Source: Ianthella basta
Lineage: Eukaryota > Porifera > Demospongiae > Verongiida > Ianthellidae
Length of the DNA stretch: 64,000 bases
Assembly: GCA_964019415.1 (NCBI GenBank)
Contig: OZ025871.1
Span: 7,560,213 to 7,624,212, forward strand
Reading direction: 5' to 3'
Position numbers and translations under genes: made by a program
Part shown: positions 14,601-64,000 of the stretch, piece by piece
Numbering within the stretch: position 1 is the stretch's first letter
How the letters are laid out: every line of letters starts with the position of its first letter
The notes under the pieces: model-generated
The model's input: only the letters and a program-made list of their open reading frames with translations
Databases searched by the model: none
What the model was told of the DNA's origin: nothing

Positions 14601-17600
14601 TACGGAGTTTTATGGAAAACCCAACTGCCATAGGTTGTGACCATTTCACACTATTCCCAGGTCAAGTCTTTTGAGGGTATAATTAATCTCAATTATACTG
14701 CTTTAATTCTTGTGTGTGCATGTATCTATGCACCCATAAGTTGCCAAAATGTCTGACCCTTTTCATTATGAATATGACTTTACCTCGCAGAGTTGTTAAA
14801 ATTTCTTCCCTTTTTACTATGTCCATTCTCCAGGCAAGTATTTTGTTAAGGACCATGAAGAATTTATCTCCTTGTCTTGTTTTGTGGTGAGAAAGATCCA
14901 GTCTGTTTCAGTCACCTCTCAGATAAGCATTGTGACTCTTGGACCAGGAAAGGAACAATCAGCCAAGCTTGTCATACCCAATGGTGCTATTCCTCAAGGT
15001 CAGGAGCTGCAAGTCAGATATGCTATTCTCCTGGATGGGCCATTTTCCATTCCTGATAACTATGATATAGTCAGCCCAGTTCTGTATATTGACTATGATA
15101 CATCCCTGGTGACGAAACCGTTGATTCTTCATCTCAACCATTGGTATGCTGGAAAGGGTCGAGACCAGACTATGACCTTCCTCAAGGCACCACATATGGC
15201 AGACAATAAAGCAATGTTTCCCTTTGTGAAGTACAGTCATGGATCATTCTTAGACAATGAACAGTTTGCAGTTCTGGAATTGAGAGAAGATCTTTGCTGT
15301 GTTATTGTTGCTGTAGAGAACACCGGCCACCTCTTGTATCCAGTCAATTGCAGACTCCATCTTTTGAAGAAGGAACAAAATATAGAAGTTACATCCTTTC
15401 GCCTGTACATCACTTATGATCACAGTTCATGGAGTGAGGTATGTCCATTCATCAACATTATCATGCTGTTTATTTAGCTGGGTAGCTATTTACAGTATGT
15501 GGCAATGTAATGTTAATGATTCTTTCTGGTTTTTGTGCTGTTTCATTGAGCATTTTGTTGCGTGTTGACAAAAATTGTTGTCAGAATGCAGAATTCAGAT
15601 CATCTCAATGACACCAGTAACAAGTATTTCAAGTGAAAAAAAACTTGTGGGGCTACCACCCAAACTCGAAATACTTGCTCCCTTCGGTTGCTGCTGTGTT
15701 ATCAACATAATTTATAGTAGCTATTGCTACTAATGTTGTGTAATTCATTAGCACACTTGTGAACACACTTCATAGGCAAGAATGAATGCAAATGATCAAA
15801 GTGGACATGAATAGAGTCAAAATATTTTGACACACATGTTCATAACGGCACAGTACATTAACTTACGTACCTTATACACAGTTTGCACGTTCTCAGAGCT
15901 GCCAAAAACCCAATCTGTAGTACACGCACACACACACACACAAACACACACACACATGGAAACACGCATGTAGCTAAATACACACATACAATACAACATA
16001 CGTACATGCTCTCTAAAATACATGGGTGAGAGGAGAAGGAAATGGATGGAGGGCACACAGACAGCTGCAAGTGCTTTACAGCACACCCGTAGTCATTGCA
16101 GCGGCTAGGGTTCTGTTGTGGCACACGGCAGTTCACTTGACCACACCTGTACCATCTGGAGTAAATTTCCAAGGGTAACTGTGCATGCTTAAGCTTTAAA
16201 TGCTATAGACCGTTAGCAAATATTTGCATACAGGATTCGTGTGGCTCACCAAGTTTTACATTGTTCCTGTCCCTTCTCTGAGACAGGGAACTGATGGGTT
16301 AGAGCTGAACTGGCTAAATTGACTATTGGACAGTTATATAATTCTGCTGGGTATCTGAAAAAAGGGACAATTGTGCCCAATGCCATCTTCCCCTGGATCC
16401 ACCCCCTGCCAACCATTAAGCCTAGCATGGCAGACCTACATTCTACTCACCATTTTCTATAATGTATTGATATCACTGTGGTTTAGAACCGCTGCTTAAT
16501 ATTTTGTTGCAGTAATATCTGTGCAGTGGACATCATCTGATTGTATTAAACAGTTTGTTTTAAATGTAGGTGTTACATTGTATATACATTCTCAATGCAA
16601 TTGGGACTTTCTTGATATGGACAGTACCTACTTATCTCCTTGCTCAGGTAATGGAAACATGTATTGAGTCCAAAGGTTGGCAGAAAGAGGGATTTGCACC
16701 TTCACAAGTTGTCACATTGAATGACCGTGAAGATGGTGTTAGAGCACGATTTGTACCTAGCAGTGGAGATGGCTGGAAATTGGAATGTCAAGGAAAATCT
16801 TTTGTAGGTTTCCAACATTGCAAAACATTATTCTATCAGTTAATTCTGTGTACAAAGCAGAGCGAGATTTCATTAAGTGTAATGGTTTTCTGCATGTGTG
16901 TGTTTCTGCTGGCTTTCACTTGTGCAGGTTCTGCTGTATGAGGTCCATGATCCAGTGCACAAGGAATACCATAGACTGTCTTCAGTATTCAATAAGGTTC
17001 TATCTTGGTTGCCATGGGAACAGCGACAGTGTAACTTAAAAGAAATGATTGATCGTGAGGAGTATCCTCCTTGTATTCACAGTGACTTGAGGTACAACGA
17101 TCCATCCATGAAACAAGATGTGCACTCATCACTGAATATTTCCATGTGTCGCTCCTCCACTGATTTTATGTCTTTCACAGTGAAGATTCCAAGTGAGCAT
17201 CTCAATGAGCACTGGGTGTGATTGTACTAGATACATGACTTGTAGCTTGACTACTTTTGGGAGTAGTTAGGTCCAAATGAAATGTTATGAATTTGGAATT
17301 GCTTACAGCTAGGACTACGCATGTGGGACATGTCTGATTTGTTTACACAAGGAAATCTGACACCTCAAAGGTGTGAATTTCTGTGTTGCTATGGCTACGC
17401 GAGCATTGTCACGTGTTATCTGCGTGATTTGACAGGAAGTTCTGGAAGAAATCGCCTTAAAACATAGTTTATGACTGCTGCGTACGTGCTTAAAGACGGG
17501 GGTAAGCAAAAACGTAGAGCTTTGATGGAATCGTTCGCGCGGAACAGCTGAATGGCAAGAAGTAACACAACATTGTCAGCCATTTTCGGAAATGTCACAA

Positions 17601-20600
17601 GAATAGGGTAAAGCGGGGGAATTCGGGATATAATTTCATCGTGGTAACTAAGATATTACATTTTACGAAAACTACAAAGGGTACCAGAACGAATTTCTTT
17701 AAGAAGTCGGAGAAGACGTGGCTCTTTCATATTGTGCACCAATCATCTCAAACCGGCTATGACAGGGAATGCACGGTAGCCTGATTCATTTTCTTAGAAA
17801 TTTTACAGCAAAATGGCCGACGAGGTAATTTGAAATACAATGTGTTGGGAACGGCCGAAGTGAAATTGAACCACTACAGTGCATTGAAACTGCAGTCAAA
17901 GATGTGTGAATGCTGGTTCTAGACATTGGAGAACTATTGGACAATGTCACACCTTCGAATTGGAGGATTTGCTTCAAAGGAATGAAATATTTGCGATACT
18001 GTGCGTTTCGCTTGGCACATGTCTGCCAGCGTGCATCATCGACAGACCTCTGGCTTCCAGACCCTTGTACTCCATCTCCTAAGCTCAGCTTTGTATTTCG
18101 TGATAGTTTGAAAGTCATTCCTTGGCAGAAATACCTGCATTTAACGAATGATGTCGATGGACCCCATAATTCTTCGCCACGCAGACCTCTAACCCAGATT
18201 AAAAAGTTGTTTGTTCCATGGGGGGTAAAATGCCTGAATTATCAGAAGAGGCATCATTCTACTATCAGGAAATAGTCTATCTTGTTCTATACTATAAATA
18301 AATACCTTCTGCTGTTAGCTGTAGAGACATGAATACTATGGCTTGTGGGTAGCTAATAATCACTTTCTAGTTAAACCAATACATCACTATGGGTCTTAAA
18401 CCATAATGGGTTCATTTCATCTGACCAGTGGATGTGTCTGGTGTGGTTACTCAAGGTAAACACAGTGTACATTGTGATGAATCAATTGTTGCAGGTGACA
18501 GGCCAGCTACACTACCTACTTCTGTGGAGGAAAGTAGAAGGATGGGTAAGCGCAGTTTGTATTGTATACAGCGAAACAATATTTTTTTCACTCAGTGACA
18601 TGTAAACTTTTAAGCAGATTATATGTTACTACACTGTCACAGTTGTGATGTTGGTAGTATCACAAACACTTACATGACTACGATATACTATTTCATGAGC
18701 CACAGACTAGTACACACAGCACATGGTCAGTCCATAGGGAGTTAGTAATACCCTATGGACTAGCCACATCATCCACTGTTGTCTGTTGTTATACTGAAGC
18801 TGAACCAAAACTGTTTGGCATTGTATTGAACTATTGTTGCGGTTATTCAATTGTATATATTCCCTACATGCTTCTTTACCTTATATATCACTAGCTGAAT
18901 ACCTGCCCTTTGGGCAGATTTCCAACCTATTGCAAGCCAGCGAGTCGGTTCCTTGCCAGCTTTGAACTATCTGCACAGGTAGCAACGTAGGCTGGCTGCT
19001 ATAACAACAGTAGAGTTTTATTCAAATGTTTGCCAACAATGAATATGGCCTCCCATAGCTGAAAGTCCTAGAAACTGATAATTATAAATGGTATCTTGGC
19101 CCGCGGATAAAAAAGAAGCGCTCTCTTCGGCTGCAGGGCAGCTAAGCTCATGTCCCTCCACTCCCTTAACTGGTATGTTGCATATCAAGTCCGCCAATGA
19201 CCGGTAGTGGATAGGTTAATAATTTTGAAAATGGCGTGTCGGCCCGCGGACAACGGATGAAGGAATTTCGCTCTTCGGCCGCAAGGCAGCTAGGTGAACG
19301 ACATCCCTTTAAGAACAAGTCCGCCCAGTCCCTCAACTGGCATGGAGTGTTTCGAGCCAATTCCCTGCAATGTGGCAATTTTTTGAAGGAACTAACACAC
19401 AAACTGAGATCCAGTGCATTATAGTCAGATTATCTATTTTGATCTGATCATGAAATTGGGATTTTTACATTAACATGTGGAATGGCTCTTAAGCTAGCTG
19501 TGTACCATGTGGTAGAGCTGAATTCATCTCCACAAAGGAGATATAGCCTGTAGAAGATCATTACATGGCATGATATTCAACGTTTTGAATATTAATGAGG
19601 GCAAAAAAATGGCCACCTGAGAAGACGACCAGTGTGTATTTTGTCAGATTTCAAACATTTGCTCCACTGCATCCACAGTTACAATGCTGTTCCATTCCTT
19701 CTGTGCCTTATCCGTCTGTTGCTGAGCTTCCTGAGCTTGATATACTTCTTTCCAGCTTGAGCCATAGGCCATAAGCCGATCTTGACTTCCCTGCAAAGAA
19801 ATTCTTCAATCAGTGACATTTTCTTCCTTGTGGTGATCTTGACACCGAGTCAATGAGGTCCTGTGTTGTATGAATGACCATTTCAGTAGCACAAGGAGTG
19901 CTGCAGACAGCTTTTGAAGCCATAAACTCACTGATATGCGCCGACTCTTCTGATATCCCTGCAAATGTGAAGCTTGTTGTCCGTGGTGCAAGCTTGTATA
20001 CTACTTTCAAATAAGCGCTGAAAGATAGCCATAAGAGTGCCAAACACTTTTGCATCAGCCACTCATAAGCGCGGCCCACCGTTCCTTCTGCATTAGATCA
20101 TGAATGTTTTGGTGCCATTTCTGAAAACTTACGCATTGCGTAAGTTTGGATTTCTATTCTCGACTGCCACATGCGACGTCATCACTGGTAGCTGTTTAAT
20201 ACATTGAAAAGACAGGCAAAAAGGTGTTGCAGCGGCAGCCTCAAGTGCTTCATGCCAAATGTCTTCATTTAGATGGCTCGACTGAATGGTTGACATGAAT
20301 ATGCACCTGACGGTCATTGATTGCAGTTGCTAAGGTATACAGTTGCATTTTAGTGTGAAACTACTGCTTATTGTTATTGTTCAGCATGTTAGTTTCTATA
20401 GGCAGCCTTGTGGAATAACACCTCTGTATCAAAGATCAGAGACAACAGCATCAGCCTGCACACTGTCAATGAATTGTTTCCGAAACTCTTTACGAACTTC
20501 TTCAGCTGCAGGGAAAGGGATTAGTGTGAAAAGCCTTCCACAAGACTACCTAGAGAAACTAACACGTTGAACAATAACAATAAGCAGTAGTTTCAAAATT

Positions 20601-44039: not shown

Positions 44040-44640
44040 AGTATCCCTGATAGTCAGAGATACCCTGATAATCCTTGGACTACGTATTACGGATCATCAC
44101 CTTTGTGCACCCCATTACCCCCTAGTCTGAGTATCCTTGGCCGTCAGTGATACTGTGTAATCTTCACCCCCTTGTCAGAGAATCCCTGACAGTCAGAGAT
44201 ACTCTGACAGTCCCCGGACAACCATGGATGGTCAGCCAGGTGTACTCTTTACCCCCCTTGTCAGAGTATCCCTGACAGTCAGAGATACTCTGACAATCCC
44301 TGGACAACCACGGATGGTCAGCCATGTGTACTCTTTACCCCCTTGTCAGAGTATCTCTGACAGTCAGAGATACTCTGACAGTCCCTGGACAACCACGGAT
44401 GGTCAGCCAGGTATACTCTTTACCCCCTTGTCAGAGTATCCCTGATCGTCTGAGATCAATACTCTGACAGTCCCTGGACAACCACGGATGGTCAGCCATG
44501 TGTAATCTTTACCTCCCCCCCCCCCCCTTGTCAGAGTATCCCTGATGGTCAGAGATACTCTGACAGACCCCAGAAACCATGAATGGTCAGATACGCTTAT
44601 TCCTGACAGTCAGAGTGAGTCTGGCAATCCCTTCACTATA
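44040..44640 (+). repeat. Left-arm ~85 bp minisatellite
   Basis: About six to seven units with ttgtcagagtatccctgaca, gtcagagatactctgacagt, ggacaaccacggatggtcag and tactctttacccc. Each unit holds an internal hairpin, gtcagagtatc/gatactctgac. Confidence 0.9.
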
Positions 44641-45679: not shown

Positions 45680-46395
45680 TGTTATCCAGGGACTGTCAGA
45701 GTATCTCTGACGGTCAGGGATACTCTGACAAGGTGGTAAAGAGCATACATGGCTGACCATCCGCGGTTGCCCGGGGACTGTCAGAGTATCTCTGACTGTC
45801 AGGGATACTCTGACAAGGGGGTAAAGAGTACACAGGGCTGACCATCCGCGGTTGCCCGGGGACTGTCAGAGTATCTCTGACTGTCAGGGATACTCTGACA
45901 AGGGAGTAAAGAGTACACATGGCTGACCATCCGTGGTTGTCTGGGGACTGTCAGAGTATCTCTGACTGTCAGAGATACTCTGACAAGGTGGTAAAGAGCA
46001 TACATGGCTGACCATCCGTGGTTGTCCAGGGACTATCAGAGTATCTCTGTCTGTCAGGGATACTCTGACAAGGGGGGGTAAAGAGGACACATGGCTGACC
46101 ATCCGTGGTTGTCCGGGGACTGTCGGAGTATCTCTGACTGTCAGGGATACTCTGACAAGGGGGTAAAGAGCATACATGGCTGACCATCCGTGGTTGTCCG
46201 GGGACTGTCAGAGTATCTCTGACTGTCAGGGATACTCTGACAAGGGGGTAAAGAGTATACATGGCTGACCATTCGCGGTTGTCCGGGGACTGTCAGAGTA
46301 TCTCTGACTGTCAGGGATACTCTGACAAGGGGGTAAAGAGTGTACATGGCTGACCATCCATGGCAGTCTAGGGATTGTCAGAGTAACCCTGACAG
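45680..46395 (-). repeat. Right-arm ~85 bp minisatellite (inverted)
   Basis: About eight units, the reverse complement of the left array: gactgtcagagtatctctga, gggatactctgacaaggggg and gctgaccatccgtggttgtc. Unit-to-unit identity is high, more than between the arms. Confidence 0.9.
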
Positions 46396-47500: not shown

Positions 47501-47583
47501 CTGCCGAATGGACCAGATCATTACTAATGTGTTAACTGGTGGGCTAGCTCCACAAGTGCAAACAGCCAAGAAGAGTGCCAGAA
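47501..47583 (+). CDS. Possible alternative first exon of gene 3 (no 2A)
   Basis: Bounded by ttttcgtag and gtaagt. It contains ATG at 47508 and reads MDQIITNVLTGGLAPQVQTA to a phase-1 donor. That phase joins in frame to exon 51565-51639 of gene 3. Joined instead to the 2A exon, it would put that exon in the wrong frame and later hit a stop. It could also belong to the end of gene 2. Confidence 0.35.
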
Positions 47584-47719
47584 GTAAGTGTGGTTGTTCA
47601 TCAAAGTCATTCTCTATTCAGTGGACCTATGAGATACCAGTGAGTACAAGGACACTGCAGCTGCAGCTAGCACAGTGTCATGTTTGTGTCCATAGTCATT
47701 TCCATCACTCCTTGTTACG

Positions 47720-47852
47720 ATGCTCTCCTCACAGGTCCTACCATTGTCGGCCCAAGCTGTATCTGTTGCATTTCTCAGCCTCCTGTTGATCTTGGCTGGA
47801 GATGTAGAGGTCAACCCTGGCCCTGGAAAAGGGAAGGAAAGAGCACCAGCAG
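47720..47852 (+). CDS. Gene 3 exon 1: hydrophobic leader ending in a 2A-like peptide
   Basis: ATG at 47720 opens a frame of 44 codons to a GTTTGT donor (phase 1). Residues 11-26 are hydrophobic (AQAVSVAFLSLLLILA). Residues 27-35 are GDVEVNPGP, a full D-V/I-E-x-N-P-G-P motif with the usual upstream LLxLAG context. In such motifs the ribosome skips the Gly34-Pro35 bond, so the leader would be released and the receptor would begin with Pro35. 2A-like leaders are known from sea-urchin NLR-type proteins and some LINEs. A splice acceptor (ctcctcacag) at 47734 could also make this an internal exon, in the same frame. Confidence 0.75.
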
Positions 47853-51520: not shown

Positions 51521-54500
51521 ATATCCTATTCAACCTTTCTCACCACACTGTACTGTACATACAGGAGAGCACTCCACAACTGGTAGACGAGAAGCTGCTA
51601 GGGACAGTTTTGTCTTCTCACAGAACGTGCTGTCAGTAGGTGAGTTCAGTTTATGTTGTTGATGTCTTTGACTGTGTCTCCTTTGAGGCATTCTTCCTGT
51701 CTTCTCAGTGTTTCCTAACTAATACCTTACCTTGGTACCTTCATTATTGCTACATATCATTTATGTATATCTCCCCTGCTCAACTTGAGAGTGCCTGGCC
51801 ATGCTGCTATATGTATGCCAGGACTCCCTAACCCTGATAGTTTTTGTGTGCAATAAATGCTCACTTTGTGAAGGGACCATGTTACCTACATCCATGCACT
51901 GGAACCATACTGTTGAAAGTGTTGCCCTCAAACAGGTGTGACCTCTGCACCATGGCACTTTGACTTCTGACCTTTGTACTTCCCCCTATCAACCCTTTCA
52001 CATGGACCGCTTAATCCGGAATCGTGATCCGGATTGAATCCGGGTTCGACACGGATTAGCGTTCACACGGCGACCTCACGATTGGGTACCAAACCCGAGT
52101 TTTAAAACAATGGCGGACAATCACCACGTTTTTGATAACATTTTTCTCGCTGCGCTGGAGGACCTATGCCCGACCAAGCTAGAAGACGACTGACAGCAGT
52201 AGCGCAATGCGTACGAAGCACAATCCGCGGGTTCTAAGTGGGCATCCAACCTACGCGTGAGTCGCCCGGCTCACCCTCGATCTTACCGAAAAGGATATCA
52301 TCTCCATACGGTCCCAGTAGCTCTGCGCAGATGGTTGCGTCCGACTATCTGCCCAAAAGAGCCTTGACCATTCGTCTGCCACGTCTACGCGCACGCCGCC
52401 ATTTTTAACCCGGATAAATGTGGGTCGAACCCACCTCGCAAGCAGGGCTAGAACCCGGATTACAACCCGGATTTATCCGGGTTCGACCCGGATTCGACCC
52501 GGATTTGACCCCAAATGTGAACGCGCTAACCCGGGTTAAGCGGTCCGTGTGAAAAGGGTGTATGTGTTGGCTAGTCTACCTTCAAGGTCACACCCAGGGA
52601 GATGCATCCCTCTTCACAACCCCCAGGTGGAGAGATGCTCTAACTAATTATCTTTTTGCCATTGCTTGGTGGTTGCTATGTTTATTGGGTGCTTGTATAA
52701 CTGTTACTTGTTGTGCAAGGCGGTTTTATCTAACTTTTTTGATGTATATAATTATTTGATTGTTGTTGCATGCCTTGTTCTGTTTTCCAATGCATGAATG
52801 AACACACTTTCATTATCTATGGCAGTGTGAACATTTGGCAGCATGAATTGAGCATGAAACGTACTTTGTGAACTATTTTTCTAATTACAGTGTTCTATTT
52901 ATTTATTTATTTATGGTTCTATTTTAGCATGTAACTATAATTTCTTTTTGTATACATGTTTGTCTTGCTGGGTGCCTTTACAGTAGCCTCTGGCTATTGG
53001 CTTTTCCCAGATTAAATAAGATTTCTGATACTGATACTGAAACACATCTTGTCACCTCTGTCATATAACGTGCAGGGATTGGGTTGCATGTGGCATACGT
53101 GATGCTAAATGTCATAGATACTCCATATACTACCTAACCATTTAATATGTTTCAGGTTGGGTTTAGAGAATCTATGGTACTGCTGTAGTTTGAGCCATGG
53201 AAAAGTGTGCAAAAGCTTCATCCTATTGGAGGCACTTAGAAATATTGCTTACTACTGTTCTATCATATTACTGCAGCAACATACTGCAGCTGTTTAAAAC
53301 TTGTGCACCAAAGGTGACTGATTCTTCCACATGAGAAGCTAGCAAGATGACCAATAGATTTCCAGGTAGCTACATAGCTACCGAATGAACAGAGAGACTC
53401 AGATCACAGATAACTCTACCACAGCTGATTACTGATCCATCGTGCTGTCCCACCGTCAGATTCCTCTGTGCGAACTTGGCTTCCTCCGCTTTCAATTCTG
53501 CTGGGTGCATCTTCTGCTGATTTGCCGGCCAAGTCAAGAGATGGGCAAGATATCTCATTTGTAGAGGAACAAGTTTTCAGAGATGTCATATATGGAGGTT
53601 TCTGCTTCAGTTGGTTTGCTGGGCTTCGGGTTAGCCCTCCTAAAGAATATTTATGCTGCATAGATTCACCCTTATTTTCCCTAGTGCTTTTCTTGTATGG
53701 CAAAATCAATAATCATTTGCCCATTCTTCCCTTATGATTATGGTAAATAAATCACTTATGACACCCCCACTCGGGATGTGGCTAATTTATAAGCGCTAAC
53801 TTACTCATGCTAATTTATAAGCTACATCCATATGCCCATGCTGATATGTTTGTGGAACCTCATAATAACCTCAAGTGATGTGTTATTTGAATTCCAAATA
53901 TAGATTGCTACGCTTCTTGATGGAAGCAATGTGTTCATGGCAGACAGTCTATAGAGCTTCCTTATACCTGGTCCACTTGATATGATCTGTGTGACCATAT
54001 TCGAAAGTATTGACCAATTACAGTAACTTGTTGTACCTCCATCCAGTACCAATCTCAGTTCCATTTTTAGCTAGGTTGTAGACCACCCCACACACTGTAT
54101 GAAGTCATGTACCTTTACTTGTTTTGTGTTTAGTAACTAAATTTAATAGTCTTGTCCTCAGACCATTCTGCCGGGGAGAGGAATGGTGTGGAGACTGCAT
54201 GTGGACAGGATGCTTTGGCACAACAGAATGTAATTAAAGTTCATAACATAATCCTGCACTAATTAGCGGCAAGTATACTTGCACGCAGTGCGGATTTCAC
54301 CCCATGGCCACATTGCATCCTGTCTCTGGAACTCACAACCTCCGTTGTGAGTTCCTATTGTCAATGTAAGGAAGATGTCCTTGCGTGGAATATTGAAAAC
54401 AGTGTGCAGTGCAGCTTAGAAAGCGACTTTCTGCTGCTCGTCCATCGGAAGACTGACCAAGACATCTTTGCCAAGTGGATGTATTCCGTCACTTCATTGT

Positions 54501-57500
54501 ACTGAATGTCCTTCAGTGTTATCCAGCCTTATATGTAGTTGTTCTGGATACTGCTTCACTCAGTGCTTTGAGTCTGAATCTCCTAGTGTGCGTACTTGAC
54601 ATGCTTAAGGTTGCAAGCAATAATATGTGACTTTGCAATCTGATTCGTGCTGCCAACATTTTGGCAGCAATTAATAGAACTTGTCTGCTTTCATCAGACC
54701 CTTCCTCCGTGTGTGTGCACTTTAGAAGAGTCTGGGGATGAGACTAGTAACTAAACATCTCTTAATATTGCTACACTGGGACCCTACACTGTAAGTAATA
54801 CTATGTATGTTTTCACTTGTGAAATGTGTGCAATTATCTGACATATCAATTCTTTCTTGGATTATTTGCTAATGTTCAATATTTTGCTTTTACAGGTCAC
54901 CAGAAGTGTGACATTCTATTTAGGACATTTATCAGTAAATGTGCTGCTGGGAAGGGGCGGTCAATCCTTGAGGGAGTCGGCCTTTCAGCTGAAGCAAGGG
55001 ACATGTGCTACAATAACCATCCATTGAATGAGGAGGAGGCTGTCCAGTCAGGACTGATTAAATGGAGAAATGGAGGTGGAAACAGTCCCACATGGACTGT
55101 GCTTCTGGGGTCAATGGAGTATGCAGAGATAGCAGTGCAGCACATTAACAAACTGAAGGAGGAACTCATCAAAGGTGCAGTCTACATAGCTGTGTTAGTG
55201 AGATTCTAAGGGTCATACACTGTGTGCTGGACATTGCTCTTAATATGATGATCATTGGCTCATACTACAGATATGCTGCTGGGAAGTAAGTTTTGTACGC
55301 TTCTTTGTCAAAGGTGTATTTTAGTTATTCAGCCTCCTTAATCTTTAATGCATGTGAAGTAACTGCTTTTGTTCAAGCGAATTTACACCATGCCTTTCTC
55401 ATCCATTATTGAAACCCAAGAATGTGTGCAGTTTAATGATTTGGTGAAGGACAGACTCCATCTTCTGGTGATACTGAGTAAAAGGGTTCATCTCCGTAAT
55501 CATCTTTCAGGGCCAGCCGAGAATAGGCTTGGATAGTAACAACGTGTGATGTCTTGTTCAGTAAAACTATGCACTGACACAATGTCTCCAATTAGACTGT
55601 CAAACATCATGGAGTACATTGCACTACACTACCTTCCTATTATGGTGTAGTTTGGGCATGAAATAGCCTGAAAAATTGAAAACATTGTGTGCAAATTTAG
55701 ACTTGGGCCCTTTATATAATAACAATAAGAACATTTAACTTGTGTGATTACCGTACTAAAGTGTGTACACAGACCAAAACTGTTGTCTTTATATTTCTGG
55801 ACCCTGTTCCGTAAATTTGTGGTAACATTGTGTTTGTCCGAACATAGTTGCACAACCTTTATTCCAATCCAATTTAATTATTTTGGTACTTGCTAAGGTC
55901 TACTTATACCGTAGCCGCAAAATTATGTTTCCATTTGAAGTTTTTCTTCGTGAACTTCGCCCGCACTTCGTATGAAGTTCGCCTGAAGTGAGATCGATGT
56001 TCGTATGAAGTAAGCCCTAAGTTCGTTTGAAGTGGGCCTGAAGTTCGCTCAAAGTTGCCCCGATATTAGTTCAAAGTTCATTCGAAGCTGGCCCAAATTT
56101 TGTACGAATTTCGCCTCGAATTTCGTTTGAAGTTTGAGGCAACTTCGAACGAAACTATCATTAGCACCAATGTTATTAGGGAGTGAACGTGCTAGCTATT
56201 CGTGCACAAGTAGTTTTGGAAGTGAGGAGTTGGCCTCCATATTGCTGGCTATGACTTCATTACAGTGAGTATTAAGGGTCAGTCTTCAATTCATCTTCAT
56301 TGCCTATTTCAAGAGTGGCAGGTAAGAGTCCAGTTCACTTTTTGCCTTTGATCCATTATGGTTGTGATGGCTCTACAGCCCTGGGGAAGCCTTGACAATC
56401 GAGGTCTACCCTTCTTACCTACATATGTCGCAGGAATAAGTTGCAGTGTTAAGTACAGGCAGCTGGAGTAGATACTTCGGTACAGTACAGCTTACAGTAA
56501 TTTCGACAGTCTTTACCTTTCATCCAAATAGAATTTTCCAGTTGCAACGTCACCCATAATTTAAGTTCATACAAAGCTGGTCCTAAGTTTGTCCGAAGTT
56601 CGAACGAAGTTGGCCCGAAGTTTTAGTGAAGTTGGCTCGAAGTTGATCTGAAGTTCGAGCTAAGTTGGTCCAAAGTTTGTACGAAGTCAACCCAAAGTTC
56701 ATACAGTGCTCCAATACTAAAGATTCCATTTTTGTTTTGAGGAAAACGAGGCAATGTGCCTCTGTGATGATTAGTAACAATTCGTGATACATATTTGTGA
56801 GTCAAGTTTGACCAAAGTCTTGTGTGTAGGCGGGAGGATAGGTCCCATGACACATGCTATGAATATATTTTATTTGATTTGACATTTGACATTTTTATTT
56901 AATTTGACATTTGACATTTCACCTTATTATTACTTATGCTGTGTGTATTGCCCCATGCTTTACTGAAAAATAAAATACTTACTTATTTAATTGAAATTAT
57001 TTTTTTTAGATATTATTTCTAGAGGGAGTTATAGTTAAGATCCAATATCTTTATGGAAACATCTTTGGTACATCTTCTAACATTCCCAATCATTCCCCTT
57101 GTTACAAACTTTAGAAGCAAAGTTTTTTGCCAAAAAGTGATTTTAGCACCTAAAACGTGTTTAGATAGGATCTTACCAGTGAATATGAGTTAAGGTCCCA
57201 TAGTCTCTTAAAGGATGCCTAGATAGTTGCACAATAACATGCCGTATATACTTCAGGTCTCTACTATATGGTTTGCCTAATGCACCAATGATTATGCAAT
57301 TGACATAAAAAAATTTTGATTTCACAGAATTTAAGGCTGGCATTCTTAAGTATGTTTTTTCTGGAAATTCTCATTCACAAGCTATTTTGGGTTTCAATTG
57401 CACAGTAAAAGAAGATTCTTTCATTAGGTAGGATGTTTGTGTAAGAATTCATCGCGTAGTAATAGCTATGCTATCTCATTGTGGTGGAACCTTTAGGATT

Positions 57501-60500
57501 TGAGCACTGTACGAAACTGGCCTGAAGCTAGTGCGGAGTTCACACGAAGTTTTCGAGCGAAGTTCACTTTGAAATAGTACCAATTTGGCGCCTACCTTCT
57601 GTGAACAAGTGACAATGTGGTATAAATGACCAGATTCATGGTTTTCTGTAGACAACAGATTCATGTACATTATTTGCCTTCACATTAATTGAAATGCATG
57701 TAAGTATAGTAACAGTGTTATTTTAATTCTGTTGACAGTTGATTGTTCTCTAAACTATTGTGCACTGCAGCTGAGGGCCAAGGAGGAGTTGATGAAGGAG
57801 TGATGTCCACTAGCTTTAGTGATGAGAAAATGGTAAGCTTGGCTGAAGATTTAGATAGTTTGGAAGTATATGCACTTGCTTCTACACTTCTATGTGTGTT
57901 CAACAGTCTTCGATTGTCTCATAGAATACATACTGACTGTGTGTAGCAATAATACCAATATCAATGAATCTACTCTGTTATGAAACTTGGATATCATGCC
58001 TTGCTAGTCCATCAGTCAACACTGCCTACATCTTGTCATGTCTCATCTGTACAGTCACTATATTACATGGCGGAGAAGTAGTGCAATGATTGGTATTATA
58101 GAATGGTGTCATGCTCATTGCAATGTCTCTCAAATTTCTAGAAGCCTTCATTTCATTTCCTGACTTTCTTGCTGAATTGTCTAACCTACAATGAAATACT
58201 GACAGTCAAAAGGGATATGATTGTTGGTTTGTAGGCTGCATATAGCTGTCAGAGAAGAATACATCTGTTAACTTTTTACGCTCGAAATTCAAACTTTCCC
58301 GCGAGAATTAGATGTTACGAAATATAAAATGGCCGAGACAGTAAACACAGGCGAAACACAATTTCGCCCTCGCAGTCCAATGAACGAATTTGCACCAGTC
58401 ATAAATTGGTACGGATAATAAGAGAAGGCCAGGTGCTTGACATACAACAGGTTTTGGACGAATTCAGGCCTTTCCTGCTTTCGTTAAGCGACTTTCACGG
58501 GTGCGCATGTGCAATAGCTGAAAGGTGCGCATTTTCAGGTTACTCAGCACTGCTAATGGATCACTGGAAGCATTTGCATCTCATTTCATTGACAGACTGC
58601 CCATGAGCATGAAAACTGCCTTCTGTTCCACGGTGGATTCGAAATATCGTGTACGGTCGCAGAGTGGGGAAGCGGTGCGATTTTGGCAAACTGTAAAGTG
58701 ACTGAGTCTTCAGTTCTGCTTGTACATTGTAAATAAACCATTGGTAAGTAATCGAAGTCGGTAAAAGAACGGCGCTGGCCTTCTAGTTTGCAGTGAAGCT
58801 CGCGAAGCGAACCCTATCAGCCATGACCGTTAAAGCTGTCATTCGTAGTTAAGTGATGCAATCATCAAGTCTGACATCAAGGTCTCCCAAGAACACCACA
58901 GCGAATAAGCCTGCCACCAGACTGAATGCCTCTACTGGTCATCCTGAAAGTTTGGGAGCCTCTGGAAGCTTTGAGCTGGCCAAGAAGAAGGTTGAACCTC
59001 TTTCATCCAAGTGCAAACCAGCTGTGCCCAAGGAGCTGGCCCAAGCCTAAGCACGAAGCTGCCACGAAGCATAAACTTACTGACATGAAGTCTCTTGCAA
59101 AGGACACAGAATTCAGAAACAGCTGTGAAGCCAAAGAAAGTGCCAGCATCAAACCTGCTGCAGGACTCACAACACATGAGCACACGATTGCTGCAAAGTG
59201 AAGAAGGTGCCTGCTGTGAAGAAGCCCACAAAGTAACTCTGTCTATCCATACACAGTTTTATGTACTAGACACTACTACATTTCTACCTGCATGTCTTGA
59301 TTCTCTCAAGCAATTGCTTGAGCTGGCATTGTGGACGTAAGAGGCGCTTAAGGCTGATTGTTCGCTAAGCCATCTTTATGCTGTTTGCACTGCATATTCA
59401 TATTCATATTCATACAATTTCACTCAAAGTAAAAATATATTTGAGTTGGGTACACAGGAGGCATTGCCTATATATGTGCTTCCCAGCTCTAAAGATGATG
59501 TGATACAGTAACATGTTACATGTGATATAAATAGGTCTAATAATAAATAAGAAGGGAAATCAATAAAGTTATCAGTATGACATAACTTTAAGAGTGACAT
59601 GTAATTATATAATTATATACAGAGATGGTTGGAAAATTTATTTAGCTGGATTGATTTGTGGATAGGTGAGTGTATAAGGCATGCTTAAATGTTGTAAAGG
59701 AGACAGTACTGGTGATATCAGTTGGTAAATCATTCCACAAAAAAGGTACATTTACAAAATAGGAGTATCTAAAGGAATTAATTCGTGAAGGGTGACACAG
59801 TAGTCGGTGGTTGCGGCGGGTACTTGGTTGGATATGGGGTGATAGTACTGGGTACAGATTGTGTAAGAGTCTGAAGGTCAGGCAATTGGTGTTAAATAAT
59901 CTGTAGTTGGCTAGAGAAAGCCACTTTAGGGAGGATAGGGAGTCAGTGTATGTGACATTCCATTTCCTTTCATGTACTAGCCATTTTGCATCAATCCATC
60001 GGGCTGCACGTTTCTGTACCCTTTCAACTAGCTCATCTGCCCTGCGGGTTGATGGTCTCCATACTGGCTCCCCATATGTCAGTGCAGGTTTAACTATGGC
60101 GTCATATGCCCTTATCTTACTATCTCTGGTGCAGCCAAACGTGGTTCTTCGTAATAGGGATAGGGTTCCATTTGCCTGTGCTACGGTGGCTTTAACATGA
60201 TGGTTCCATTTCAGTTTGTTATCCACAATTCCGCCAAGGTATCTGTAGGTTTCCACTTCATCTATGGCAGCAGCATCTATATAGTAATGACAAGGGATGG
60301 TATTTCTTTTGTTTGTCACATTCATAGCTTTGCATTTGGATGGATTCAGTCTAAGTTGCCATTTTGCGCACCAGCTTTGGACATTATTTAGGTCTTCTTG
60401 CAGCCCTTGACAATCACTTGCACTCCTAATAGCTTTGAATAGGACACAGTCATCTGCAAATAATCTAATGGATGAATAATGTTGGATAGCACTAGCCAAA

Positions 60501-63500
60501 TCATTAATATATATAAAAATTGTAGCGGTCCAAGAACAGTACCCTGAGGCACTCTGGAAGTGACCTTGGCCCAAGAAGATGACTGGATGTAGAGCAGCAA
60601 CCTGCACTTTGCTGTTTGTGTGACCATATCGTATTATAGTTAATTATGTTATTTGATGCTAAGATATTGTATAATTTCTAATATAGGTGCCTCTTAAAAC
60701 TAACTCCAGCACTGAAAGGTGCTTCTTATTAGAATGACAAAAATTATGCAATGACCAAGGGGCACTTCAATTAGAATGGCACCTAGCACGTGTGTCAGAG
60801 TGGAATAGTTGTAGAGCCCGCACGTATAGGTTAGCTATCATTTTTTTTCTGGACAATTTTCTGGTTGCCTTTCATTATTTGCTGTTTCTTGGGTTCTCGT
60901 TTAGCAATGCTCTGTTCGAAGCCATTGTCACAAAAGTTCTTCAGTCACCACTGGATGTTCTTTTGCGGAATACTGAACTTCTTTTCAGAAGGACAAACTC
61001 CATGGTGTCTAGCATGCAGAACAACATGCTGCTTTTGTTTCGCAGTGTATGGACTTGGCTCTTGTGGGCTCCTCACCATTAGCAAGTACAGTTGCCACCT
61101 GGACATCTTCTTTGACAGCCTGCACTTCATTCAGTTCATGAGGGTGCTTACTTGGTCTCCCCACAGGTTGCTTGACCTGCTTAACCGTCTTCTCTTGCGT
61201 TTTGTGCATGTGAATGAAACAGGATGTAGTCTCTGTGCTGACATGGTTAAAGTAGTCCATTAGGGTCGCAGTTTTGTTGTCTCAAGCTCAGCACGTGATT
61301 GTGCAAAATAATTCATATTCCTCTCCAATAATTTAGGTGCCGCCTAGTATTATTTTAATGCTCAAGGGCGCTTACAATTGGAACGCAAAAATATGATATG
61401 CCCTAAGAGGTGCTTTATTAGGAGCGGCGCCTGTTAGAAACTATACTGTTACGGTAGTTTGTTTGATGAGCCAATCACGAAGTACTTTAACGACAAAGAT
61501 TCCCAAATTATGTTAGTAACCATGTACGTAGTATAAATGCTTGCTGTCATCATCATCATCAACATCATCATTTGAGACCATTTATCTTTAGACTGGGGTT
61601 GCTATATAACTATACAGGTAAAGTGTTAATACTACTATTAAAGCTAGTCAGTGAAAACTAAATCAAATTTCATCTCTCCGTCACTTCCTAGGTCTCCCTC
61701 TGGGCCTTCTTCATGACATCCACTCTACGCAGCTGTAGGTGTGCTCAAGTTTGGTGTATCAGTGCTTGCGTGGCAGCAGCTGCTTTGGCATATTCTCTGT
61801 CTTTCACTACCTGATGAATCATATGATTCCATTGAGTATCTCATGCCTATTGTAGAGCTTATTCTAACTCTAGCATATAACAAGTGGCTTGAGCCTTCTG
61901 CTCAGTGTAAGCTTCATGTGCAGGCACATTTGGGGCACGTCCAATTTTGTGATCAGAGATGGTAATGACACCTGAAGGCTTTCTGTGTTGCCATGGCTAT
62001 TAGTCCGAGTGCTGTATTGTGACATGCAAATGGCAGGATTCTGAGGATAAGATTGTCTTCAATTGTGGCATTGCATCTGGCAGCTACATATGTACTAGAT
62101 GATGAAGGCTAGCCAGCCTAACTGTAAGTGTCTGATTGCATAGTTTAAGCACAACAACTAAATTGCATGATTTAATACAATATCATTTGGAAAGTGTAAT
62201 GAGGATATTATCACATCTTAGTGGTTGAGTCATAGTTGTTGGGACTGTTTTGGTCGACACAAGATTGAAATGGTTAGTAATGTGGATTATCTATTTACCA
62301 AATGTGATACTGTTATGCAATATTCCAATCTCGTTATTTGACCTGATATTTTAATGCCAATGAAGAGTCGTATTCTTCTTATGATGAAAGGTCAGATCAT
62401 TGTAGTTGGCCTATGTAACATACAGACCAGGATAGGTTGAAAATAGAGGTTACTCACTGGATTTACGCCACTTAGCCTTCTATATGCAAAAGTATTAGTG
62501 CCTCAGAAGCCTGAGGGGCCAGACCCCATATTGATGACAATGCTGGTAGAGGGCTGGTTGGCATACAATCCAGTGATTATCTCTTTATTCAACCTAGCCT
62601 GGCCTGTCCGTTACCCATAGCCCTTTGTAATGCACTAAACTAGCTCATGCCAATGAATCACAATTATAACTTGTACCCTTCCCCCTCATCAGCTCTTGTT
62701 GAAACCACAAGTGTGTAAGTGAGTAGCTAGCTATTCTGCTATCCATCAGTACACCACACTGAGGAGCCCTTATCATGGTGAAACAGGCGTTGTATCTTTG
62801 TAGAATGACCAGCTGGGGAAGGTGATCACTGCATGGTTGACATCAATAAGAATCCACCCCCTGTCTCCTGAGACACTAATACTTCAATACTTGTGTAGAG
62901 GCTGGTCGTCATGAAAACCAGTATTTATGTACCTATTTACTTTTAGGTGGTATAATTGTAGGCACTAAGCAACAGTACGCAATTTCTTTTTTGCATAGGT
63001 GCGTTTTGGATGGACTGTAGACACAGTACCACAGTTTTAATGTAATGGTACTTGAGTCTTAGTGTGCAGCGTGCCTTTCATGTTAAATTTTCATTTGCAT
63101 CTTCTGTAGATGATACTACAGTTTGCAAAGAATGTAGAAGCCTGCAATGATGACATGCAACTTGTACAAGACAATTTCTGCAAGGATCAGACAATGAAGT
63201 TTGTTAAGCTTGCAATGGCTCCATTCAAGTTGGACTTTGAGAATCAGCAGAAGAGATTTGTTGAAGCAGTGTGCGATCCAGAAGGTGTGGACAAGGTGTT
63301 AACACTTGTCAAAGGCAAAGTGAAGTATGATGATCTTCCTCACATGATTAGACAATACAAGCTCTTAGTTCTAAGTGGTGCTCCTGGTGTTGGAAAGAGC
63401 ACACTAGCACGGAAGTTATGTCAAGATATATCTAAGAAGTGTAAGCAACATGACTATCAATTGGTGCTTCTGTTGGAGCTTCGCAACCTTATTGATTATG

Positions 63501-64000
63501 TTGGTAGACCTGAGGAGTTTCAAACCAAACACTTGCTGGAGCACTTCAGTGGCCTAATGTGTGAAGGATGCACACCAGAGATGATGGCTAGGGCAATTGA
63601 AAAGGACCTTGGTAGAGGAGTACTCCTCATCCTAGACGGCTATGATGAGTTGTCTGCCCCACTGCGCCAGTGTCCGTATTTCCATCTCCTTCTGACACAC
63701 TCCCTTCAGTCTCCTCTTTCCAGCTGTGACATTGTGCTAACATCCAGGTCAATAGTCACCAGTGAGATATATCAGCATATCAGTAAATCTACGGCTGCTA
63801 GACATTTTGTGAATGTGGAGGTGCTTGGATTTGGAAAGACTGAAATAAGGAATTTTGCTCGGCAGTACTTTGAGGAGCGTAACCGACCTGACCTGCTGGA
63901 CTCATTTCTGGACAGGTTGGAGCAGTTTCCCCAAATGAAGAGCCTGCTCTCTAACCCTGTGGTGCTGTCCATAATTTGTGTTGTTTATTTAGCCCAGGAA
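47720..64000 (+). CDS. Gene 3: 2A-leader / Death / NACHT NLR-like receptor (3' end beyond the window)
   Basis: Exons are 47720-47852, 51565-51639, 54896-55174, 57771-57832 and 63110->64000. Phases are 1, 1, 1 and 0, and the first four sum to 549 nt (183 codons) with no stop. Model residues: leader with 2A 1-35, linker 36-70, Death about 72-158, linker 159-183, NACHT from about 263. Death plus NACHT is a typical NLR layout in sponges and other invertebrates, where a C-terminal LRR or other sensor usually follows; that part is outside the window. Such proteins are cytosolic ATP-dependent immune sensors. The ATG has A at -3. Exon joining is by splice consensus and phase and needs RNA support. 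Confidence 0.7.
49020..49051. repeat. Palindrome of the GGGGCTGCC/GGCAGCCCC type
   Basis: ggggctgccgcaggcagcccc is a near-perfect hairpin followed by tatattgtt and tatggcttcat, like the one at 12218. Confidence 0.6.
49135..49521 (+). other. CpG-rich open stretch, unassigned
   Basis: Unlike its AT-rich surroundings, about 49190-49510 is GC- and CpG-rich and open on both strands. The plus frame has PRDFENRLPNDVIANFGRS; the minus frame has SSEAARPLSKKARGEVDDLL. It could be a first exon plus promoter, or the body of a GC-rich transposon. It lies in intron 1 of gene 3. Confidence 0.35.
49755..50215. repeat. Long compound GT microsatellite
   Basis: About 460 bp of (gt)n interrupted by repeating ggtgtgtgtgtgcatgt blocks, themselves in tandem near 49920-50030. 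Short cgcgcg runs (alternating purine-pyrimidine) occur near 50060 and 50090. Confidence 0.95.
50265..50342. repeat. Hairpin repeat, AAGTATTTCGAGTT family, copy 2
   Basis: The perfect arms aagtatttcgagtt (50289-50302) and aactcgaaatactt (50327-50340) flank a smaller hairpin, ggggcggcagcccc. The left flank agcgaccgaagggag is shared, inverted, with the copy at 15.6 kb. Confidence 0.8.
51448..51519. repeat. GT microsatellite
   Basis: A pure (gt)n of about 70 bp ending 46 bp before exon 2 of gene 3. Confidence 0.95.
51565..51639 (+). CDS. Gene 3 exon 2: linker
   Basis: tacatacag acceptor, gtgagt donor, 75 nt, phase 1 to 1. It encodes EHSTTGRREAARDSFVFSQN and NVLSV. It lies just after a (gt)n microsatellite. 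The frame is the only one consistent with both neighbours. Confidence 0.55.
   Translation, partial: ESTPQLVDEKLLGTVLSSHRTCCQ
51993..52558. mobile_element. GC-rich non-autonomous DNA element with TIRs
   Basis: The ends ccctttcacatggaccgcttaa and ttaagcggtccgtgtgaaaaggg are inverted repeats. Internal subterminal repeats of 'gacccggatt' and 'aacccggat' type occur mostly at the right. CpG-rich, with no transposase. No clear target-site duplication was found by eye. Confidence 0.8.
52560..54890. other. Gene 3 intron sequence without a firm feature
   Basis: A possible exon at 54164-54231 (DHSAGERNGVETACGQDALA) has an acceptor, but its outgoing phase does not fit the Death exon. Both strands are open at 53416-53709 without splice support. 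Confidence 0.3.
54896..55174 (+). CDS. Gene 3 exon 3: Death domain
   Basis: ttttacag acceptor, donor gtgcag, phase 1 to 1, 93 residues. Helix 1, CDILFRTFISKCAAGKGRSI, leads into VGLSAEARDMC, then HPLNEEEAVQSGLIKWRNGG, the hallmark NSPTWTVLLGSMEYAEIA and a last helix. The spacing LGL...I/C....EEA...L..W....G..PTW..L is diagnostic of Death domains, which make homotypic contacts with adaptors. The domain is complete in one exon. Confidence 0.85.
55590..55725 (+). repeat. Dispersed repeat, copy 2
   Basis: The catggagtacattgcactacac and caaatttagacttgggccct blocks match 11800-11985, with an internal deletion. Confidence 0.6.
55930..56160. repeat. Degenerate GAAGTTCG-type short tandem repeats, main block
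   Basis: Many copies of a unit of about 20-24 bp, roughly 'cgaagttcgcccgaagttng', occur with strong decay. Further blocks are at 56570-56710 and 57505-57575, in the same intron of gene 3. Confidence 0.7.
56570..56710. repeat. GAAGTTCG-type repeats, second block
   Basis: ttcgaacgaagttggcccga and variants are repeated about eight times. This is the best preserved block. Confidence 0.7.
57505..57575. repeat. GAAGTTCG-type repeats, third block
   Basis: A few units (acgaaactggcctgaagcta, ttcacacgaagtt, cgagcgaagttca) flank exon 4 of gene 3 upstream. Confidence 0.5.
57771..57832 (+). CDS. Gene 3 exon 4: short linker between Death and NACHT
   Basis: cactgcag acceptor, gtaagc donor, 62 nt, phase 1 to 0. 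It encodes EGQGGVDEGVMSTSFSDEKM. Its outgoing phase 0 matches the start of the NACHT exon, and no other candidate between 55.2 and 63.1 kb does so as cleanly. Confidence 0.55.
58900..59236 (+). pseudogene. Histone H1-like processed pseudogene, 3' part
   Basis: The stretch GASGSFELAKKKVEPLSSKC in one frame matches the end of an H1 globular domain (GASGSFKL) and the start of the Lys/Pro/Ala tail. After a frame change come PKPKHEAATKHKL, then TAVKPKKVPAS, KPAAGL and the terminal VKKVPAVKKPTK with a stop at 59236. Frames shift at least three times and there are no introns, so it is a dead copy, probably retroposed. Confidence 0.6.
59642..60627 (-). mobile_element. 5'-truncated LINE (CR1/L2/Jockey-like RT)
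   Basis: Minus-strand frame 60540-59642 gives INDLASAIQHYSSIRLFADD (catalytic FADD), LNNVQSWCAKWQLRLNPSKC, VETYRYLGGIVDNKLKWNHH, KPALTYGEPVWRPSTRRADE and a C-terminus with FLWNDLPTDI, the usual end of this group. Just upstream, RVPQGTVLGPLQF is in another frame, so one frameshift lies near 60540. Everything 5' of that is missing. It sits antisense in the last intron of gene 3 and belongs to a third LINE family in the window. Confidence 0.85.
60685..61440 (-). mobile_element. Pogo-like DNA transposon remnant
   Basis: The ends share 'ggtgcctctta...attagaa' type inverted repeats (left from about 60685, right to about 61440). Between them, minus-strand pieces give PVGRPSKHPHEL (AT-hook-like), PYTAKQKQHVVLHARHHGVC, EKKFSIPQKNIQ and WLKNFCDNGFEQ, a helix-turn-helix start of the kind found in pogo/Tigger transposases. 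No DDE region is seen, and frameshifts are present. Confidence 0.5.
61445..62435. other. Gene 3 intron, little content
   Basis: A (cat)n-like run at 61548-61575 and a Leu-rich open frame at 61741-61965 (LPIVELILTLAYNKW-like) without splice support. No feature is claimed. Confidence 0.4.
62440..62945. mobile_element. MITE with inverted arms, copy 2, enlarged by insertion
   Basis: Arms tactcactggatttacgcca...gcctgaggggccagacccca and tgacatcaataagaatccac...tgtctcctgagacactaata...aaaccagtatttatgtacc correspond to the arms of the element at 46704-46975. The centre is about 200 bp longer and includes a second, partial arm-like block, gagggctggttggcatacaatccagtgatta. Confidence 0.7.
63110..64000 (+). 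CDS. Gene 3 exon 5: NACHT NTPase (runs off the right edge)
   Basis: After acceptor tctgtag the frame is open to the window end (297 codons). Exon residues 90-98 are Walker A, GAPGVGKST. 172-181 are LLILDGYDEL, an NLR-type Walker B with the second acidic pair. About 208-213 are VLTSRS (sensor 1 Arg). Near the end, FPQMKSLLSNPVVLSIICVV is the helical winged region where NLRs carry a conserved Pro. All catalytic elements are intact, so ATP binding and hydrolysis are expected. The first 80 residues are helical and may be a pre-NACHT region. The LRR or other C-terminal part would lie past 64000. Confidence 0.95.
   Translation, partial: MILQFAKNVEACNDDMQLVQDNFCKDQTMKFVKLAMAPFKLDFENQQKRFVEAVCDPEGVDKVLTLVKGKVKYDDLPHMIRQYKLLVLSGAPGVGKSTLARKLCQDISKKCKQHDYQLVLLLELRNLIDYVGRPEEFQTKHLLEHFSGLMCEGCTPEMMARAIEKDLGRGVLLILDGYDELSAPLRQCPYFHLLLTHSLQSPLSSCDIVLTSRSIVTSEIYQHISKSTAARHFVNVEVLGFGKTEIRNFARQYFEERNRPDLLDSFLDRLEQFPQMKSLLSNPVVLSIICVVYLAQE

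Follow-up and report, generated by a model that had tools for sequence, protein, structure and literature searches.

The window, that is, the whole stretch of 64,000 nucleotides analysed here (C4 positions 7560213-7624212 of the Ianthella basta assembly, G000), carries on its plus strand the candidate exons of an NLR-type gene together with a complete 2A core (Table 1), and it was compared with 209 Mb of genome in 96 contigs. Further elements are scattered around these exons. The minus strand holds pieces of a non-LTR retrotransposon, namely a reverse transcriptase (E=3.6e-40) and an endonuclease (8569-10308, 10275-11099), as well as a reverse transcriptase fragment (59645-60643, E=3e-9) inside the predicted intron ahead of the NACHT exon. 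ORF-like peptides that are repeated, made up of SDSP.TT.DGQPG units, occur at 44161-44445 and 45884-46292 and are probably a minisatellite. A plus-strand ORF at 14800-15474 encodes a ZU5 domain (E=8.6e-5), which is often found with Death domains, and a CARD-like stretch on the minus strand (20405-20524; 47.5% over 40 residues, E=1.5e-5) is similar to the CARD-like exons of the 2A genes and is perhaps the remnant of another receptor gene.

Table 1. Exons and 2A elements of the predicted receptor gene in the window.
Feature	Position	Strand	Remarks
Upstream leader exon	47501..47639	+	phase-2 acceptor, phase-0 donor; MDQIITNVLTGGLAPQVQTAKKSARSKCGCSSKSFSIQWTYEIP from ATG 47508
Short intron	47640..47734	+	95 bases in the window copy; contains ATG 47720
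2A exon	47735..47852	+	phase 0 in, phase 1 out; VLPLSAQAVSVAFLSLLLILAGDVEVNPGPGKGKERAPA+G
Leucine-rich context LLLILA	47780..47797	+	abuts the 2A core on its upstream side
2A core GDVEVNPGP	47798..47824	+	bond predicted to be skipped: Gly (47819-47821) to Pro (47822-47824)
Linker exon, predicted	51565..51639	+	phase 1 to 1; splice signals and open frame
Death-like domain exon	54896..55174	+	phase 1 to 1; family profile and predicted fold
Short exon, predicted	57771..57832	+	phase 1 to 0; splice signals and open frame
NACHT exon	63110..64000	+	extends 774 bases beyond the window to its stop; PF05729, E=4.2e-19

Translation of 47720-47852 gives MLSSQVLPLSAQAVSVAFLSLLLILAGDVEVNPGPGKGKERAPA, in which all invariant 2A positions are found. 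Its DVEVNPGP (47801-47824) agrees with the StopGo/2A consensus (D/G/C/N)(V/I)ExNPGP, and the hydropathy just upstream reaches KD 2.14 over 19 residues, as a hydropathy measure alone. Compared by eye with the upstream contexts given in the available part of PMC12846837, LLILAG falls into the L-rich class ending in (A/S/C)G, and LLLILA is similar to the LLLLSG-like class with (A/S/C)G before D. Across the genome the strict pattern GDVExNPGP, in any codons, is matched 302 times and its reversal not once. The complete 2A that the first-pass annotation had described at 47720-47852 is therefore upheld, and on these patterns we take the peptide to be real and not a chance resemblance.

The start of the gene had to be revised. 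The first-pass annotation began the protein at ATG 47720, with a short signal-like leader at the N-terminus. In an alignment of 15 leader copies selected by motif (the window and L030-L043), this ATG lies in ATGCTCTCCTCACAG, the acceptor tract of an intron (47640-47734) that measures 94-111 bases across the copies, with length differences that are not multiples of three, and that is flanked by exons which stay in frame. The intron donor gtgag[tc]ac at 47640 and acceptor cag at 47734 are present in 15/15 copies, as is the donor GTTTGT (GGTTTGT) following 47852 at the end of the 2A exon. The ATG itself is absent from five of the 14 other copies (L031, L034, L038, L042 and L043), losses that are not all independent since L031 and L043 are alike. 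Exon 47501-47639 shows neither a stop nor a frameshift in the copies, with a single in-frame 6-base deletion in L040 and partial coverage of L042, and its acceptor ends in tag in each of the 12 copies inspected for it. A donor at 47583 (GTAAGT), good in the window alone, was rejected and 47639 taken instead, because nearly all other copies have no GT there. In these motif-chosen copies pN/pS amounts to 0.67 over exon 47501-47639, which indicates weak constraint, 0.21 over the 2A exon and 0.08 over LLLILAGDVEVNPGP; within the core codons none of the 18 first and second positions varies, and three of the nine third positions do.

A search for the start codon did not find it; ATG 47508 is not universal (missing in L032, L033 and L034, three of the 13 other copies covering that site), and ATG 47720 is intronic by paralogue comparison. 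Since exon 47501-47639 has its own acceptor, the protein may start farther upstream; a first exon like that of the type-1 relatives (ATGAG/gtgagt) was not found within the up to 170 bases before it. The same layout recurs in the type-1 loci L021, L024 and L026-L028 and partly in L025 and L048, with a candidate start ATGAG just upstream in L021, L024 and L028 (the donor being GC in L028) and AAGAG in its place in L026 and L027. Ahead of the window's hydrophobic stretch lie at least 44 net-basic residues (5 K/R, 2 D/E), and, with ATG 47720 intronic, the stretch would be internal. A gene start at ATG 47720 is thus probably wrong, and the 2A probably stands inside the protein, in the order net-basic segment, hydrophobic stretch, 2A and receptor. 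We regard it as improbable that transcripts starting in or before the short intron yield a short N-terminal signal peptide with 2A, 35 residues long from ATG 47720: this ATG is kept in nine of the 14 other copies and the peptide resembles the 26-residue sea-urchin leaders (available part of PMC4981915), but 2A and splice sites persist in the five copies that lack it, its place in a short intron with a conserved acceptor makes it non-coding, and type-1 relatives possess a long coding-like segment upstream.

Downstream of the leader, predicted exons of compatible phase reach the Death-like and NACHT exons, as the first-pass annotation had proposed, and the resulting gene model is open throughout; an exon at 54162-54229 was tried and dropped, as it broke the frame. 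NACHT is matched by profile (PF05729, 69.4 bits against a cut-off of 26.7). For the window's Death exon no Pfam match was obtained even at E=10; among 21 copies of its family, six give a Pfam Death match with E no higher than 1 (best 1.4e-4), and the family profile finds the Death domains of CRADD (4.4e-4, 1.4e-3) and FADD (0.22-0.55). The predicted model has six helices with a mean pLDDT of 82.6, two of the five models being near 50, and its fold is nearest in Foldseek to the Death domains of FADD, RAIDD and TNFR1 (probability 1.00, ten best TM 0.68-0.85), at a best E of 0.013 and with no match at E 0.001. By profile and predicted fold, the exon family is Death-like, the fold expected of an NLR-type receptor. 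LRRs were not found in the 737-residue model up to E 0.1, and we therefore write 'NLR-type' and not bona fide NLR; the exon's stop is at 64774, and further exons beyond it may be joined by splicing. Of the leader of an immune receptor claimed in the first pass, the Death/NACHT gene, the conserved 2A and the hydrophobic stretch upstream stand, whereas the short form beginning at ATG 47720 gives way to one in which paralogues put the net-basic exon 47501-47639 ahead.

Conservation of the motif was assessed by DNA and protein similarity searches, which avoid the bias of motif-chosen copies. The window exon gave 34 DNA matches, of which 30, the window included, are exon copies on C4 with 89-100% identity; the motif is intact in 30/30, although these were found by similarity rather than by motif. 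The remaining four are partial or 74-92% identical, and at least two carry the motif among the matches listed. A protein search with a 144-residue type-2 leader returned 109 matches (150 of 151 candidates scored), and on C1, C2 and C4 below 8.14 Mb the motif is present in 58 of the 59 copies that reach the 2A columns, the sole exception being C4:4313774-4314175. In-frame stops interrupt four of the 59. In L045, a type-3 copy, a stop in frame directly precedes the motif; L070 has none there. In a large protein set, which may be largely of the same species and is thus no cross-species test, 62 of 72 leader homologues keep the motif and 10 have it broken or variant. With the query counted, the fixed positions except V/I are held in 67-72 of the 72, while the free x is T in only 44; that the fixed core is held while x varies most is the signature of 2A.

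When I or M was also admitted at the second core position, the genome held 355 matches (81, 87 and 187 by last-codon class), positions in the class of 187 being those of the first 100, up to C4 8.13 Mb. The 2A leader exons form tandem arrays at C4 3.66-8.2 Mb and at C2 1.10-2.16 and 3.61-3.90 Mb. Those on C2 contain 53 strict motif matches, all on the minus strand, and those on C4 interleave three leader types on the plus strand, with 30 window-type and 34 GDIETNPGP-type motif matches on that contig. By these copies the gene belongs to large tandem families in the genome.

Two kinds of locus carry the motif. At nine LINE-type loci (L012-L019 and L029) it sits in ORFs, some of them shortened, in which the 2A is followed by sequence that by eye looks zinc-finger-like or endonuclease-like; L015, too short to judge, was put with them through its upstream similarity to L017. 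NACHT was found at none of the nine. At short-exon loci (L020-L022 and L024-L028, with L023 like L022) a splice donor follows soon after NPGP. It is very improbable, in our estimate, that the leaders are leftover LINE sequence exonised into genes and kept through recent duplication instead of selection. The genome does have LINE-type ORFs with 2A in similar context, but the motif is held, with x free, in families at about 52-65% protein identity, the pN/pS of 0.08 among motif-chosen copies points to constraint, and a Pfam LINE domain is absent from two leader models.

Fourteen short-exon loci were read over several kb (the window, L020-L028, L070-L072 and L074), and in 13 of them the same strand carries NACHT, Death or CARD farther downstream. 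NACHT is present in seven (the window, L021, L022, L025, L026, L027 and L028), accompanied by a clear Death domain in L022 (3.9e-6) and a weak CARD in L028 (0.035), and was not found in the stretch read at the other seven. Among the latter, L023 has Death, L024 CARD (E=0.0036), L070 Death (0.0072), L072 CARD (0.032) and L071 both Death and CARD-like exons; L074, itself a window-exon copy, has CARD (0.0013) 5.9 kb downstream, and about 9 kb of the type-3 locus L020 revealed no receptor exon. All CARD scores and the L070 Death score fall below the Pfam cut-off. Moreover, two CARD-like matches (41.7% identity, E=2.3e-17 each) share a strand with the 2A of L029, a LINE-type locus, so that proximity to CARD alone is not specific; L029 may lie inside a receptor cluster.

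The linkage was also approached from the Death exons, with 150 of 409 candidates scored, of which the 66 located on C1-C3 or on C4 up to 8.13 Mb were used. A same-strand 2A occurs within 12 kb upstream of 20 of the 22 Death exons that share 71% identity or more with that of the window, and of none of the 44 more distant ones. For the 22, neither the 12 kb downstream nor the other strand gave a 2A, and random positions gave 2.2%; as many copies lie in tandem arrays, they are not independent events. For the two exceptions, a search of L085 and L086 brought up no leader, which says little for L086, since it holds a retroelement-like ORF. The 2A module, its conservation, its linkage to Death, CARD and NACHT and the corrected local exon structure are thus observed features of this genome.

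We consider it likely that the window encodes a StopGo/2A module towards the 5' end of the coding part of an NLR-type gene, and that the leader would be released, leaving a cytosolic receptor, with unsplit chains anchored. That the module is spliced to the receptor exons, that skipping occurs and what becomes of the two products are inferred from the sequence. The mRNA would encode the net-basic segment, a hydrophobic helix, the 2A core and then Death (or CARD) and NACHT. The ribosome, on reaching NPG/P, would usually fail to make the Gly-Pro bond; the leader would be freed, ending in a hydrophobic tail, and a cytosolic receptor with N-terminal Pro would be made from the same mRNA, while unsplit chains would retain an internal membrane anchor. 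In seven leaders the 19-residue hydropathy peak, which reaches 1.5-2.45, stops 10-13 residues short of the last Pro and is preceded by a net-basic flank. As some 30-40 residues fit into the exit tunnel, the hydrophobic stretch should still be inside it when NPG/P is decoded, and the decision would precede membrane targeting. By analogy with one sea-urchin NLR leader, which was estimated to be about 80% active in vitro and whose inactive mutant sent a reporter mainly to the Golgi (PMC4981915, in the part available), partial skipping could yield two receptor forms; some upstream sequences are described, in the accessible part of De Felipe et al. 2010 (PMC2978324), as blocking the 2A reaction upon ER translocation.

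It is also conceivable, though we would not expect it, that the 2A is a complete separator, the leader being a protein of its own (basic helix and hydrophobic tail) and membrane targeting of the receptor not the point. Type-2 leaders are indeed conserved beyond the 2A (W15 57/57, R26 55/57 and V29 57/59, query counted), and four upstream motifs tested, one of them L-rich, were all StopGo-active at 92.7% to almost 100% (available part of PMC12846837); yet the type-2 leader gave no confident fold model (mean pLDDT 52.5), and the upstream exon of the window type is weakly constrained. Release of the leader with a fraction of anchored receptor is the reading that we prefer.

Some gene regions contain more than one 2A exon. 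In L071, one strand carries within 7.5 kb a type-2 leader, a full Death exon (70% identical to that of L022), a CARD-like exon, a half-Death exon with 2A and another CARD-like exon. Its first 2A reads GDMETNPGP, with M replacing V/I, its second GDVETNPGP with a hydrophobic stretch, and both 2A exons are phase 1 in and out. Reading around each motif, we found type 2 followed by half-Death in L076-L075 and L081-L082, by three half-Death exons in L080, L079, L078 and L077, and by type 2 again in L083-L084; by motif positions alone, four motif-bearing exons fall within 13 kb of each other in one part of C4. L071-like loci lie at C4 8.59-8.60 and 8.92-8.93 Mb. Recombinant exons, which join the first part of Death to the hydrophobic/2A end of a leader, comprise L071, L075, L077-L079, L082, L049 and 13 homologues without the MPIS start (P0181-P0193, most with a half-Death front part); the motif is kept in all 13 and intact in the others where read.

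Such neighbourhoods might mean that some genes are immune polyproteins, in which serial 2A sites would divide the product of one mRNA into several Death-fold pieces, separate or differently anchored, and a receptor; we judge this rather unlikely. That promoter choice or splicing selects among neighbouring leaders as alternative first exons, one per mRNA, is plausible, if somewhat short of an even chance. On C4 all nine type-3 GDVELNPGP matches listed have a type-2 GDIETNPGP 6.6-25 kb downstream on the same strand, and the phases are compatible. The second 2A exon of L071 fits this less well: it has no MPIS start and is located after Death and CARD-like exons, and is therefore not a like-for-like first exon.

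Well over 100 conserved 2A leader exons in an animal that is not an echinoderm, with Death, CARD or NACHT exons following at 13 of the 14 loci read, would make the recoding device either an ancient part of animal innate immunity or one that was taken up more than once. The leaders furthermore provide a natural library for asking whether incomplete skipping leaves some receptor at the membrane and some in the cytosol, and whether effector domains can be freed individually.

Several known systems share parts of this design, 2A skipping being familiar chiefly from viruses and from the NLRs of sea urchins. Cellular use of 2A is called rare in the available part of Li et al. 2026 (PMC12846837), and NLRs are named as the cellular case in that of Luke et al. 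2024 (PMC11512398). For animals other than sea urchins we found no title or abstract on 2A in NLRs among the search results of an open-access library, and the term '2A-like' is absent from the main text, as available, of a paper on NLRs of the sponge Dysidea avara (PMC12909245). Among viral StopGo/2A sequences, L-rich contexts form one upstream class, whose motif 6 is active in vitro (Li et al. 2026, available part). The window shares with them (D)(V/I)ExNPGP and an L-rich hexapeptide ending in (A/S/C)G before D, but lies in an exon of a host gene and not in a viral polyprotein. The host genome offers another comparison. APE-type non-LTR retrotransposons reportedly contain 2A (Odon et al. 2013). 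Core and leucine-rich context are the same in these elements. Such ORFs occur here in L013, L014, L017 and L029, with zinc-finger-like and endonuclease-like sequence by eye; unlike the short spliced exons of the window, these are element ORFs, with no NACHT downstream at the nine read.

The closest parallel is the sea urchin Strongylocentrotus purpuratus, in which 2A signal sequences and dual targeting of NLRs were reported (Roulston et al. 2016, PMC4981915), about 35% of the NLR paralogues (85/241) having 2A according to the accessible part of that study. Both systems place a 2A core behind a hydrophobic leucine-rich stretch and before Death and NACHT, in many paralogues. The sea-urchin leader has 26 residues, is at or near the N-terminus and in most cases is a predicted signal sequence, one having been tested in cells (PMC4981915, same part). 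Here, by paralogue comparison, the coding-like exon 47501-47639 precedes the 2A, which would consequently not sit in a short leader at the extreme N-terminus: measured from the likely start, the sponge leaders are 74-140 residues long or longer, span several exons, have a net-basic front and are of predicted activity, and their genes include CARD besides Death versions and neighbouring 2A exons. As read from the genome, the greater length of the leaders, the phase-1 exons and the occurrence of neighbouring 2A exons within a single gene region go beyond the published sea-urchin case.
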